Source of the DNA: an uncultured Verrucomicrobiota bacterium
GTDB lineage: Bacteria; Verrucomicrobiota; Verrucomicrobiia; Opitutales; Opitutaceae
DNA: 42,180 bases
Direction of reading: 5' to 3'
Assembly (NCBI GenBank): GCA_913058185.1
Contig: CAJXQX010000028.1
Span: 1-42,180, forward strand
Of the stretch, positions 8,604 to 30,049 are shown piece by piece. Numbering within the stretch: the first letter of the stretch is position 1; each line of letters starts with the position of its first letter. Below the pieces are notes generated by a model that made no database searches, was not told where the DNA came from, and saw only the letters and a program-made list of their open reading frames with translations. The position numbers and the translations under genes are program-made.

Positions 8604-11162
8604 TCAATCCGACGCTACGGGCGGCCAATTGTGTTTCGGGTAGCGCCCCGCCAATTGCGCGCGGACATCGCGATACGCTCCGCTCCAGAATCCATCGAGG
8701 TCATCCGTGAGCTGCACCGGTCGTTGATTGGGGGCCAACAACTCCCACCGCACCGCCAATCGTCCAATCCCGAGGGTAAAGGCATTGGTCAATCCGATCA
8801 CATCCTGCACGCGGGCCGACAAAATCGGTGAACCTTGCTCACCATAGGTGATGCGTGCCCTTCGCCCGTTCGGCAACTCCACCCGCTCCGGCAGATAATC
8901 ATCGATCACGGCTAACTGCTCTGCCCGTAACCAGTCTTTCAATACGGGCATCACCGGTTTATCTTTCAGCTCCCGGGCGCCAAAGCTTCCCAGGCAAATC
9001 TGCTCCACCAACATCAACCGATCTTCCGGGGTTAGCGGCGATACCTCCAATTCAGGAAAGAAACGAGCGAGACAATTCACCCGCGTGATCCAGCGATCCA
9101 CCGCTTCCGTCCAGGTCTTAAGTTTGATTTCACCCGACTGCACCCGAATCGCCAATAAACGGGCGGCCGCATCTTCAGGAGGCACTCCAGCCGTCGCCTT
9201 GCTTTCTAGCACGAGATCGCGGAACCGCCGTTCTCGGCGCACGATCACCCGACGCGTATCCTCATCATAGATCACCGTATTGGTCTCCCGTAGATCGTCT
9301 GGAAACAGTTCGGCTAGCCAGGACTCCTCCACCGCGGTGGCCATGGACAGCAAGACGTTTAACTCCCCTCCCCGTCCTTCGATTTCGCTGATTTCCGCCG
9401 CCACCAATAATCCGGCTTCCTGCACCGAACTCTCACGGGCTAAGACCCCGCGACGGTTGTGCACCAATTCACATCGCATCGTTCCCCGATCCAATCGTCG
9501 GGCGAGTTGATCGGAAAACCCCGCCAATATGCATTTACAGATCTCCGAATCCGGCACCGCCTCGGCCAACGATAAGCCCTCTTTCTCCGTAATTTTCAAT
9601 AACTGGGCAAATAGCGGACCGACCTGTCGCGCGCCTTGCGCATGCACGCCCAAGGCCCGGCACGCTTCGACGGAATATCGGTTTTCGTGGGCGTATTCCC
9701 ACGCTCGCATCAAGCGGAAGAAATCGCTCGATTCTTCATTTCCCCAACGCTCATCCCGCGCCCGGTCGATTGCGCCAGAAACATCCCGTAGCAGGAAGTT
9801 ACGGCCTTGAGTCAGTGCGGCCATTAACGCGACCACTTTGGCACATCCCCGCTGATCGGCTTCCAACAACATACGGGCATAACGGGGATGCGCCGGGAAC
9901 TTCAGCATCCGTTTCCCCATCTCGGTAATCGACCGATCTCCGTGGCTCTCGGTTGCACCAAGATCAGCCAATAATTGCTCCGCGCGTTCTCGAGCCGCTG
10001 GTTCCGGCGCTTCAAACCAGGGAAACGTATCGATCCGATCAATGCCGCTGGCTTTTAAGGTCAATACACTCTCCGCCAAATCAACCCGATGCACCTCGGG
10101 CTTCTCGTAGGCCGGTCGATCGGCGTGGTCGCGCTCCGACCACAATCGTAAACATTGCCCCGCTTGCGTGCGGCCAGCCCGCCCCGCTCGCTGGTCGGCA
10201 CTCGCTCGCGAAATTTTGTCGATCAGCAACGTATTGATTCCTCGGCGTGAATCGAACCGGGCCATGCGCGCCAATCCCGCATCAATCACGCCCGTCACTC
10301 CGGCGATCGTCAGGGAGGTTTCCGCCACATTAGTGGATACGATGATCTTGCGCCCTGTCCCGGGACGCACCGCCGCATCTTGCCGCTCCGGAGCCAGTTC
10401 CCCGTGGAGCGGAAACACCTCAAATCCCTTCAATGCCCGATGGGATTCTAAGGCACTGACGGTGCGACCGATTTCGTAGGCCCCCGGCATGAAAACCAAA
10501 AGATCGCCATCCGTCTTCGTCGCCAGATCCACCGCTCCTTGAGTCGCGACATCCCACACCCCTTCGCGATCGAAATTCGGCGAACGGGTTAGATAACTGA
10601 TATCAACCGGATAGCTGCGTCCCACTGATTCGATGTGAGAACACGGCTCCAAATACTTCACCAACGTGTCCGCCGACAACGTCGCCGACATGACCACGAT
10701 TTTAAGGTCAGGTCGAATCGTAGCCTGAATCTGCTTCGCCCGGGCCAACGTGATATCTCCGTGTAAGTGACGCTCATGAAATTCGTCGAACACCAAAACA
10801 CTGACTCCTTTAAGCGTCGGATCGAACGACATCTTCCGAAGCAGAATGCCTTCAGTCACATAACGGATCTTGGTCCGCGCCGATACCCGACTCTCGAGCC
10901 GAATCTGATACCCGACGATTTCGCCTAACGCGGATCCCTCTTCCTGCGCCACCCGCTGAGCCAGCATGCGGGCGGCCAAGCGGCGCGGCTGCAGCACGAT
11001 TACTTCACCCGTATTCAGTAATCCATGACGTAACAACATCCGTGGAATCTGAGTGGACTTACCCGACCCCGTCGGCGCTGAAACCACCACGCGCCCTTGC
11101 TCCTCCAAGCTCGCCAGCAAGGCGCTCTCGAGTTCGTAAATGGGCAGGTCCGTGGGCGTCAT
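8604..11162 (-). CDS. hrpB: ATP-dependent RNA helicase HrpB
   Basis: Large DEAH-box (DExH) helicase of the HrpB group. In E. coli and relatives it is non-essential and its RNA target is not well defined. It has 852 residues from the ATG at 11162. Walker A is APTGSGKST (residues 29-37), motif II is the DEFHER variant typical of HrpB, motif III is MSATL, and motif VI is QRAGRAGR, followed by the helicase-associated domain and a C-terminal HrpB-specific domain ending in RYPKHNWPP. A longer frame opens at TTG 11186, but ATG 11162 has a GGAAGG box about 10 bases upstream and removes an eight-residue tail that does not look like the family. It stands alone, and its leader holds the GTTATTCAC repeats. 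Confidence 0.95.
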   Translation of the reverse strand: MTPTDLPIYELESALLASLEEQGRVVVSAPTGSGKSTQIPRMLLRHGLLNTGEVIVLQPRRLAARMLAQRVAQEEGSALGEIVGYQIRLESRVSARTKIRYVTEGILLRKMSFDPTLKGVSVLVFDEFHERHLHGDITLARAKQIQATIRPDLKIVVMSATLSADTLVKYLEPCSHIESVGRSYPVDISYLTRSPNFDREGVWDVATQGAVDLATKTDGDLLVFMPGAYEIGRTVSALESHRALKGFEVFPLHGELAPERQDAAVRPGTGRKIIVSTNVAETSLTIAGVTGVIDAGLARMARFDSRRGINTLLIDKISRASADQRAGRAGRTQAGQCLRLWSERDHADRPAYEKPEVHRVDLAESVLTLKASGIDRIDTFPWFEAPEPAARERAEQLLADLGATESHGDRSITEMGKRMLKFPAHPRYARMLLEADQRGCAKVVALMAALTQGRNFLLRDVSGAIDRARDERWGNEESSDFFRLMRAWEYAHENRYSVEACRALGVHAQGARQVGPLFAQLLKITEKEGLSLAEAVPDSEICKCILAGFSDQLARRLDRGTMRCELVHNRRGVLARESSVQEAGLLVAAEISEIEGRGGELNVLLSMATAVEESWLAELFPDDLRETNTVIYDEDTRRVIVRRERRFRDLVLESKATAGVPPEDAAARLLAIRVQSGEIKLKTWTEAVDRWITRVNCLARFFPELEVSPLTPEDRLMLVEQICLGSFGARELKDKPVMPVLKDWLRAEQLAVIDDYLPERVELPNGRRARITYGEQGSPILSARVQDVIGLTNAFTLGIGRLAVRWELLAPNQRPVQLTDDLDGFWSGAYRDVRAQLAGRYPKHNWPPVASD

Positions 11163-11224
11163 GTAAGAGCGACCTTCCGCAACCAATTTAGGGGTTCAAG
11201 CCTAACCGTTTTGGGTCGGTAAAA

Positions 11225-11269
11225 GTTATTCACCGGTTATTCACTCCGTCCCCCAATTCGGTGAATAAC
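11225..11269. promoter_or_regulatory. GTTATTCAC box cluster (two direct, one inverted) upstream of hrpB and the RNA locus
   Basis: GTTATTCAC occurs at 11225-11233 and again at 11236-11244, and its reverse complement lies inside CGGTGAATAAC at 11259-11269. The outer copies form an 11-base inverted repeat, GTTATTCACCG/CGGTGAATAAC. Such spacing suggests binding of a dimeric or multimeric regulator, or a hairpin in the hrpB leader. It lies 63 bases before the hrpB start (minus strand) and about 70 bases before the first helix of the plus-strand RNA, so it could serve either. It is not a DnaA box (TTATCCACA). The rest of 11163-11336 holds only small hairpins such as TTAGG...CCTAA and no convincing promoter. 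Confidence 0.4.
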
Positions 11270-11336
11270 TTGTGCATATCAAAGTCGTGACTTTTCGGGA
11301 AAAATTTTGCATGTTTTTCGATGTTCTTTGATGGAA

Positions 11337-12187
11337 CAGTCAGGCGCACGACGTAATGAAAAAAACGTCGAAAGCGAAGACTGGGATACGCCCGGGTAAC
11401 CGGGGAAAGGAGAATCGGAGCTGGTCCGATTTCTCCCCTCAAGCGAAGCTTAAAAGCCGCGAGAGGCATATATCACCAGTTCCTCTGACCGGGGTCGTGC
11501 CCGGCTCAGCTACACGAATCAGGAACTGAGCGATGAGCCGCGAATTAAGAAACCGCGAGCGAATCGAGTCAGGTATGACGCAAGTTTCGAACGTCATATT
11601 GATACTGTAACCCAGAGGGTTTCGGCTGCTACAGTAAGCCAGACTGTAGATTGGTCTTGGGTGGGAAACCGCCAAAAGGTCGCTCCCAAGTCAGGGAAGC
11701 GAACGCGAAAACAAGACGAAGATGCAGGAGATTGAATGAGCGTGGCAAAGCTCAGCAGATCTCATCAAGGGGGCGGTGCGGAAAACCGCGTCACCCCATT
11801 GCAAGGTAGAAAGCAGCCTGAGAGTTAAGAGGTCAGACCCGTCTCACAAGGCAAACGCCCAGCCAAAAGCTGGGGCCGTCCTCGTGACAAAGGTGCCGAC
11901 GTGAAGATGCGCCCTTGCAGGCACGTCAGCACCAGGTCCGGCGAATCACTCCCGGCAGGGAGAGATCGAACCGGGCGAAGAGGCCTCACTCAATAAACTC
12001 AGGTCGGAAACGACAGGAGCGATCCCGCTATGAGATCGAAAACCGCGCATGCCGTGCGGAGTAGCGTCGGGGAGTTTGCAGCCCGCGAAAGCGAGAGCGC
12101 CTAATGCAAACATTTGGGAAAGAGTGCGTGGCGCGTGCCCACCCCCCATATTTGGCCCAGAGAACTTCGGTTCTCTGGGCCTTTTTT
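11337..12187 (+). ncRNA. Large, densely structured non-coding RNA of unknown class (about 850 nt)
   Basis: No credible protein is encoded here, but one local helix follows another on the plus strand. They include CGACGT/ACGTCG (11349-11354, 11365-11370); GGAGAATCGG with a complement carrying one bulge (11409-11418, 11426-11436); CAGTTCCT/AGGAACTG (11477-11484, 11521-11528); TATGACG/CGTCATA (11574-11580, 11592-11598); TACTGTA/TACAGTA (11603-11609, 11630-11636); CTTGGG/CCCAAG (11656-11661, 11685-11690); CCCAGC/GCTGGG (11858-11863, 11869-11874); a 12-bp helix with one mismatch (11892-11903, 11922-11933); CTCCC/GGGAG (11949-11953, 11958-11962); GTCG-GAAA-CGAC (12003-12014); and GTTTGCA/TGCAAAC (12074-12080, 12105-12111) closing an inner CGC-GAAA-GCG. 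It ends in a UUCG-capped intrinsic terminator. The 5' end is set at the first helix (CAGTC/GACTG, 11337-11383), and no promoter is evident. It does not show the conserved cores of RNase P RNA, tmRNA, SRP RNA or a group II intron domain V. Strand and 3' end are well supported; class and function are unknown. Confidence 0.72.
12154..12187 (+). terminator. Strong intrinsic terminator of the structured RNA
   Basis: A perfect 12-bp stem, GGCCCAGAGAAC/GTTCTCTGGGCC, is capped by a TTCG tetraloop (12166-12169) and followed by six T residues (12182-12187). This is a textbook Rho-independent terminator on the plus strand. As no plus-strand protein gene lies upstream, it sets the direction and 3' end of the non-coding transcript. 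Confidence 0.93.
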
Positions 12188-12213
12188 GTGCCCAACTCCC
12201 TCGACCCACCCCA

Positions 12214-12250
12214 ACCAAGCCGATGTTCGTATTACGAACATCGGCTTGGT
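12214..12250. repeat. 37-bp perfect palindrome between the RNA terminator and typA
   Basis: Two 18-base arms (12214-12231 and 12233-12250) are exact reverse complements around a single T at 12232. The core is CCGATGTTCGTATTACGAAC. No T-run follows on either strand, so it is not a standard terminator. It lies 127 bases before the typA start, in its probable promoter or leader. Possible roles are an operator for a dimeric regulator, a stable leader hairpin, or a target site for a mobile element. Confidence 0.8.
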
Positions 12251-12376
12251 GACCTAGGAGAGGGGTAAGTTACTGGGAACGCTCTAGTTCCACCGGTGTG
12301 CGTCCTTCCGTCTTGCCTTGGACCATTCCGGGAGGCACGTTCTGCCTTTTCGCACGAATCTAAGCCGTATCCGGAC

Positions 12377-14200
<1,824 letters not shown>

Positions 14201-29972: not shown

Positions 29973-30049
29973 GGACCCTTAGCTCAGTTGGTTAGAGCGC
30001 TTCCTTGACATGGAAGAGGTCACAGATTCGAGTTCTGTAGGGTCCACCA
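29973..30049 (+). tRNA. tRNA-Val (anticodon GAC), CCA encoded
   Basis: A 77-base cloverleaf. Acceptor stem GGACCCT/AGGGTCC (29973-29979, 30039-30045); D arm GCTC...GAGC with AGTTGGTTA; anticodon stem CTTCC/GGAAG around loop TTGACAT, giving anticodon GAC for valine; T arm ACAGA-TTCGAGT-TCTGT; discriminator A at 30046 and genomic CCA at 30047-30049. It sits alone between recN and ribF, transcribed towards them from the opposite strand. No repeated tRNA 3' end or integrase lies next to it, so there is no sign of an integration site. Confidence 0.97.

Follow-up and report, generated by a model that had tools for sequence, protein, structure and literature searches.

In this study, we found that the gap between hrpB and typA in an uncultured Verrucomicrobiota bacterium almost certainly carries a gene for MISL RNA, a member of Rfam family RF03079. 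The window, that is, the whole stretch of DNA that was analysed, comprises 42,180 nucleotides of contig CAJXQX010000028.1. The best explanation overall, which we regard as very probable, is a MISL gene that is a free-standing unit, makes contacts beyond the annotated helices and would yield, from its own promoter, an abundant folded RNA. The window contributes one further member to a known family and no new class.

Results

Identity of the locus

The Rfam covariance model of MISL RNA (RF03079) matches window positions 11384-12139 on the plus strand with 501.7 bits and an E-value of 2.2e-151, whereas the gathering cut-off of the family is 274.6 bits. The match covers model positions 1-751 of 751, and letters stand on both sides for 172 of the 177 model pairs, some of them non-standard pairs. 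The locus thus belongs to the family by a score above the curated cut-off, by full length, and by the family helices and the core AGACCCGU. This element, at 11835-11842, is the last part of a conserved core at 11813-11842 on the plus strand; 87 of 90 MISL loci contain AAGANNNNAGACCCGT. The source genome has one MISL copy. Separately, a tRNA gene (70.2 bits) lies at 29973-30046 of the plus strand of the window.

The initial annotation had proposed an RNA of unrecognised, perhaps new, class, and had itself stated that a significant match to an established Rfam family would remove novelty. Because there is such a match, the claim of a new class falls. Its exclusion of RNase P RNA, tmRNA, SRP RNA and group II introns is upheld: neither these nor 6S RNA matched in a permissive Rfam scan of 10900-12500 with E up to 5. 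Five other matches in the scan had E-values of 0.58 to 4 and were all far under their family cut-offs. Riboswitch-like words in the core were dropped after the scan gave no such match. Genes for RNase P, 6S and SRP RNA are located elsewhere in the source genome, so MISL as a stand-in for any of the three was rejected.

The plus strand of 11323-12187 folds at -363.1 kcal/mol. The mean of 20 dinucleotide shuffles was -295.98 kcal/mol (sd 8.24; z -8.15), and none of the 20 was as low as the native sequence. The initial annotation was right in placing a long, structured RNA without coding function on the plus strand, and there is little doubt that 11323-12187 is a free-standing structured RNA. A helix of 12 bp with one mismatch at 11892-11903/11922-11933, pointed out in the initial annotation, is present when the sequence is read directly. 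When 90 MISL loci were scanned in all six frames, the longest run without a stop codon had a median of 161 codons, compared with 138 in mononucleotide shuffles, in which the 95th percentile was 216 codons. The medians of the six frames were alike, from 92 to 105.5 codons. A protein gene in the hrpB-typA gap is therefore unsupported, since stop-free stretches are near the shuffled level and no frame stands out.

Ends of the gene

Related genomes suggest that the MISL gene starts some 60 nt upstream of the Rfam model and extends to a terminator, spanning 11323-12187 (about 865 nt). It thus appears to reach past the Rfam model on either side; otherwise no difference at the level of the family was found, the core being the same and the relatives lying in Verrucomicrobiota. 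The limits first given, 11337-12187, are right at the 3' end and need a small correction at the start, where a conserved 5' hairpin begins at 11323.

The 5' hairpin, GUUC-UUUGAUG-GAAC at 11323-11337 on the plus strand, is outside the Rfam model, is conserved in relatives and is probably the first element of the transcript. A loose GUUC-loop-GNA pattern is present in 85 of the 90 loci, at a median of 59 nt upstream of the model start. The alignment for testing covariation kept 88 of the 90 loci, the partial matches G005 and G252 having been removed beforehand. Pairs were counted in alignment A1, made by excluding loci with less than 400 bits or more than 85% identical to a chosen one, which left 54, and then the diverged second copy L154, which left 53. 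In A1 the 5' hairpin is paired in 94.8% of cells, but none of its pairs shows changes on both sides. A second 5' helix, also outside the Rfam model, is formed by 11338-11341/11379-11382 (element 11338-11382, plus strand) and encloses a less conserved inner hairpin, 11349-11353/11366-11370, paired in 57.5% of cells. In A1 all four outer pairs of this helix change on both sides and 85.0% of cells are paired; its best pair reached only E 0.81 in a tree-based covariation test. This test is our own script after the R-scape idea, not R-scape, with a substitution-shuffling null and 88 sequences.

A possible promoter precedes the hairpin on the plus strand at 11287-11315, with a -35-like GTGACT (11287-11292) and a weak -10-like CATGTT (11310-11315), following a signal pattern in relatives. 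When 85 loci are lined up by their GUUC hairpins, likeness to TTGACA is highest at -35, 68% of the loci have A at -12 and 75% have T at -8. Against a promoter, likeness to TATAAT peaks equally at -44, and a sigma-70 scan of 11180-12300 returned no promoter site. The spacing of the -35- and -10-like signals would suit transcription beginning at the GUUC hairpin; the signals are modest overall and weak in the window.

At the 3' end, the terminator scan found an intrinsic terminator on the plus strand at 12154-12187, with a 12-bp stem and UUCG cap (12154-12181) followed by T6, in agreement with the perfect UUCG-capped terminator first reported. It is one of three terminator-like sites in 11180-12300, where shuffles gave a mean of 1.5. 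A terminator-like hairpin lies downstream in 86 of 88 loci, by a loose definition and without a shuffled control. Between the MISL terminator and typA there is also an inverted repeat at 12215-12249, whose 16-bp arms match perfectly around a loop of 3 nt; no T-run follows it.

Contacts beyond the Rfam structure

The structure line of RF03079 cannot encode pseudoknots, and six contacts considered here, PK1 to PK6, are absent from it. PK1 to PK5 were picked by length and pairing from a helix-scan list of further helices that change on both sides, a list that is rich in short, likely chance helices. All six are on the plus strand.

In the tree-based test, 23 column pairs had E <0.05. Of these, 17 belong to the Rfam structure, PK1, PK2 and PK3 contribute one apiece, and the remaining three are 11771-11796, 12026-12061 and, in the terminator region, 12154-12180. 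Complementarity is low in certain borderline pairs (11471-11945, E 0.05, 63%; 11679-11706, E 0.12, 62%), so the null of this test is imperfect. PK1 is an H-type pseudoknot of 11495-11499 with 11513-11517, paired in 93.9% of cells; two of its five pairs change on both sides, and pairs 11498-11514 and 11499-11513 gave E 0.000 and 0.17, respectively. PK2 joins 11624-11629 (GGCUGC) to 11813-11818 (GCAGCC); its pair 11626-11816 gave E 0.000, 95.6% of cells are paired and five of six pairs change on both sides. PK3 joins 11799-11804 to 11915-11920 and can be extended in the window to 11806/11913. Its pair 11803-11916 gave E 0.000, and 82.7% of cells are paired over eight pairs, of which the inner two do not form in 28 and 30 of the 53 sequences. 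Comparison of sequences thus supports PK1, PK2 and PK3 as covarying contacts beyond the Rfam helices, with one significant pair each.

PK4 and PK5 are probably also contacts, judged from pair counts in the alignment alone. PK4 (11421-11425 with 11638-11642) is paired in 98.9% of cells and four of five pairs change on both sides; no pair had E <1 in the tree-based test, and Rfam pair 11419-11425 was left out when PK4 was entered. PK5 (12026-12030 with 12062-12066) is paired in all cells (100%) and two of five pairs change on both sides; its own pairs were all above E 1 in the tree-based test, in which 12026-12061, one column off, gave E 0.000. PK6 (12050-12053 with 12130-12133) is tentative: it is paired in 97.2% of cells with no pair changing on both sides, which is conserved complementarity only.

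For the 33 contact pairs of PK1 to PK6 in 53 sequences, 93.6% of cells are paired, compared with 86.6% in shuffles and 25.0 to 42.1% when the pairs were slid. Changes on both sides occur in 21 of the pairs (10.9 in shuffles; 8 to 15 when slid), and double-change cells number 165 (53.5 in shuffles; 22 to 46 when slid). These counts come from sequences that overlap with those used to discover the contacts.

Genomic context and distribution

The gap that holds MISL is bounded by hrpB on the minus strand (TIGR01970, 630.7 bits) and, on the other side, by typA on the plus strand (TIGR01394, 817.4 bits), both above the curated cut-offs. Of 90 loci, 28 have hrpB nearby, always on the strand opposite to MISL, 29 have typA nearby on the same strand, and 24 have both. 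Other MISL groups have other neighbours, such as cysteine synthase and rho, and in one family the neighbours include an L25 ribosomal operon and a gene resembling prolyl oligopeptidase (names assigned by eye from the sequences). No universal partner gene was found in the flanks of the 90 loci, which extend at most about 7 kb and often less at contig ends. Since the hrpB/typA neighbourhood is recurrent, the MISL gene is often inherited in place. MISL is a chromosomal gene often retained between divergent hrpB and typA within its family.

MISL was found in 28 of 57 near genomes, the source genome included, in 68 of 286 genomes sampled from the class and in 24 of 288 sampled from the phylum; 25, 63 and 23 of these, respectively, exceed the cut-off. 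It was found in none of 14 control genomes. The three samples overlap, and with the stricter filters weak members may be missed. No copy was found in 29 of the 57 near genomes under these filters, some genomes being incomplete; MISL is therefore probably dispensable. A core pattern matched at least 119 stretches in named genome contigs, and all 80 among the matches listed bear Verrucomicrobiota titles. Two genomes have two copies each, G201 (L060, L069) and G309 (L071, L074). The second G201 copy is without the otherwise conserved AGACCCG core.

Five loci match model positions 1-751 with scores under the Rfam cut-off, namely L027 (256.0 bits), L028 (218.6), L086 (267.6), L087 (243.2) and L088 (182.4). 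Since they match the full model, either the Rfam cut-off or the model itself may be drawn too tightly.

A search of 50,697 phage and 72,556 plasmid records at E 1e-5 gave no DNA resembling MISL. A phage or plasmid origin of MISL was rejected on this ground.

MISL pieces in viral contigs

Four IMG/VR contigs carry MISL pieces: L278 (1-476), L343 (1-317), L359 (1-806) and L360 (33-165). One was found among viral contigs by the core pattern and three more by 5'-end patterns, one of which matches 32 of 90 cellular loci. A 3'-end pattern found no viral contig, but it recovers just 33 of the 90 cellular loci, and one further scan is uninformative, its pattern matching none of the 90 cellular MISLs. 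In all four contigs, sense MISL is upstream of sense phage genes; three carry genes of ssRNA phages and the fourth, L360, a DUF3383 gene.

L278 holds about MISL positions 144-610, with a score under the cut-off (254.5 bits) but an E-value of 7.4e-76, followed by a phage maturation gene. L343 holds positions 1 to about 290 (210.5 bits, E 9.9e-61), followed by maturation and replicase genes. L359 holds a nearly complete MISL (543.2 bits), followed by phage sequence that includes a replicase gene and a maturation-protein match just under the cut-off. In L360, about the first 125 positions (66.2 bits, E 6.4e-17) precede the DUF3383 gene, as seen in 1046 of its 15,111 bases. By eye, the MISL break points differ, at about 125, 290, 610 and 735 of 751, and the best cellular MISL matches differ among the three phages.

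In L278 the MISL homology ends at 476, and the related phage contigs L280, L285 and L283 start at the positions equivalent to 477, 478 and 483; L281 and L279 begin further inside the phage than the joint. The joint of L359 is at a hairpin-like sequence that resembles, by eye, the start of L364, and L343 has no phage relative extending to its joint. Among 32 leviviral contigs, mostly picked for long leaders, MISL was found in one, L343, and the only other matches were two weak ones to microRNA models (E up to 0.5); L343 had been included after a BLAST match and L295 after a motif match. An exact 18-nt match links L278:306-323, in the MISL core, to L279:617-634, where the same phage has its maturation gene; this match (BLAST E 0.014) does not lie at the joint.

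The joints are probably cDNA chimeras made by template switching and possibly RNA recombinants. Reverse transcriptase running off the phage 5' end onto MISL would yield such joints, and phage replicase would too. We favour an artefact because the phages, the MISLs and the cut points all differ. Capture of MISL by RNA phages is judged unlikely, since three phages carry different MISLs with different cut points and since the joint is the phage 5' end in L278 and apparently also in L359. With either origin of the joints, the pieces suggest that MISL is expressed and plentiful in environmental RNA.

Discussion

MISL was reportedly first described in a 2017 survey of 224 candidate structured RNAs. 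No function was reported for it in the literature searched, where "MISL RNA" is rarely named and which did not include the original description. Searches for "MISL motif", or for MISL with Weinberg and noncoding RNA, gave no match; in the wider literature, MISL has nearly always other meanings among the matches listed, and it is not named in the literature found on ROOL and GOLLD. A MISL window serves as a chemical-mapping example in the accessible part of the Ribonanza preprint (PMC10925082).

We propose that MISL would be transcribed from its own promoter as an abundant RNA. There is an even chance that it acts as a folded particle, either an RNP scaffold or a self-assembling RNA, and not as an antisense regulator or a self-splicing ribozyme. 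Covariation does not show whether a contact is intramolecular or intermolecular. In the accessible part of a cryo-EM report (PMC12286853), GOLLD, ROOL and OLE form homo-oligomers, and one covarying contact of GOLLD turned out to be an intermolecular bridge. MISL is similar to these RNAs in size and in its many pseudoknots, and PK2, PK3 and PK4 span 122 to 222 nt. By analogy, MISL might be an abundant RNA forming a homo-oligomeric particle in which some of PK2, PK3 and perhaps PK4 bridge chains, an idea that we consider unlikely. A still less likely extension of this idea is intracellular recombination between RNA phages and MISL.

A trans-acting regulator, either an antisense sRNA or an RNA polymerase decoy like 6S, is quite unlikely. 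The conserved flanks would suit such a free-standing gene with its own terminator; however, the genome has a separate 6S gene, and a tightly knotted RNA would leave few free stretches. A ribozyme or a mobile intron-like element with sharp ends is very improbable. The model ends are sharply conserved and MISL pieces are joined to other RNAs, but the joints appear at differing MISL positions and not at one site, conservation runs on into the 5' hairpin and the terminator, no intron model matched, and MISL is often syntenic within its family.

There is next to no chance of a new class of giant ornate RNA, since the length, the helix density, the lack of a protein gene and the fold z-score that would fit one are set against the full-length RF03079 match. 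Just as negligible is membership in GOLLD, ROOL or OLE, to which the locus had been likened: the likeness holds for size and ornateness but not for family, since none of these models matched in 10900-12500 at E up to 5, similar DNA is absent from the phage and plasmid records searched, and MISL is syntenic with hrpB and typA. GOLLD and ROOL, in contrast to MISL, are described as phage- and prophage-encoded in the accessible part of the cryo-EM report (PMC12286853).

In conclusion, this study likely adds better gene ends, three supported and two probable contacts and a hint of abundance to a known family. The better ends and the likely tertiary contacts would allow a full-length construct for probing, cryo-EM and knockout, and may help in extending the Rfam model. 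If MISL does form a homo-oligomer, it would be the fourth natural RNA-only assembly, and one that comes from a vertically kept chromosomal gene and not from a phage.
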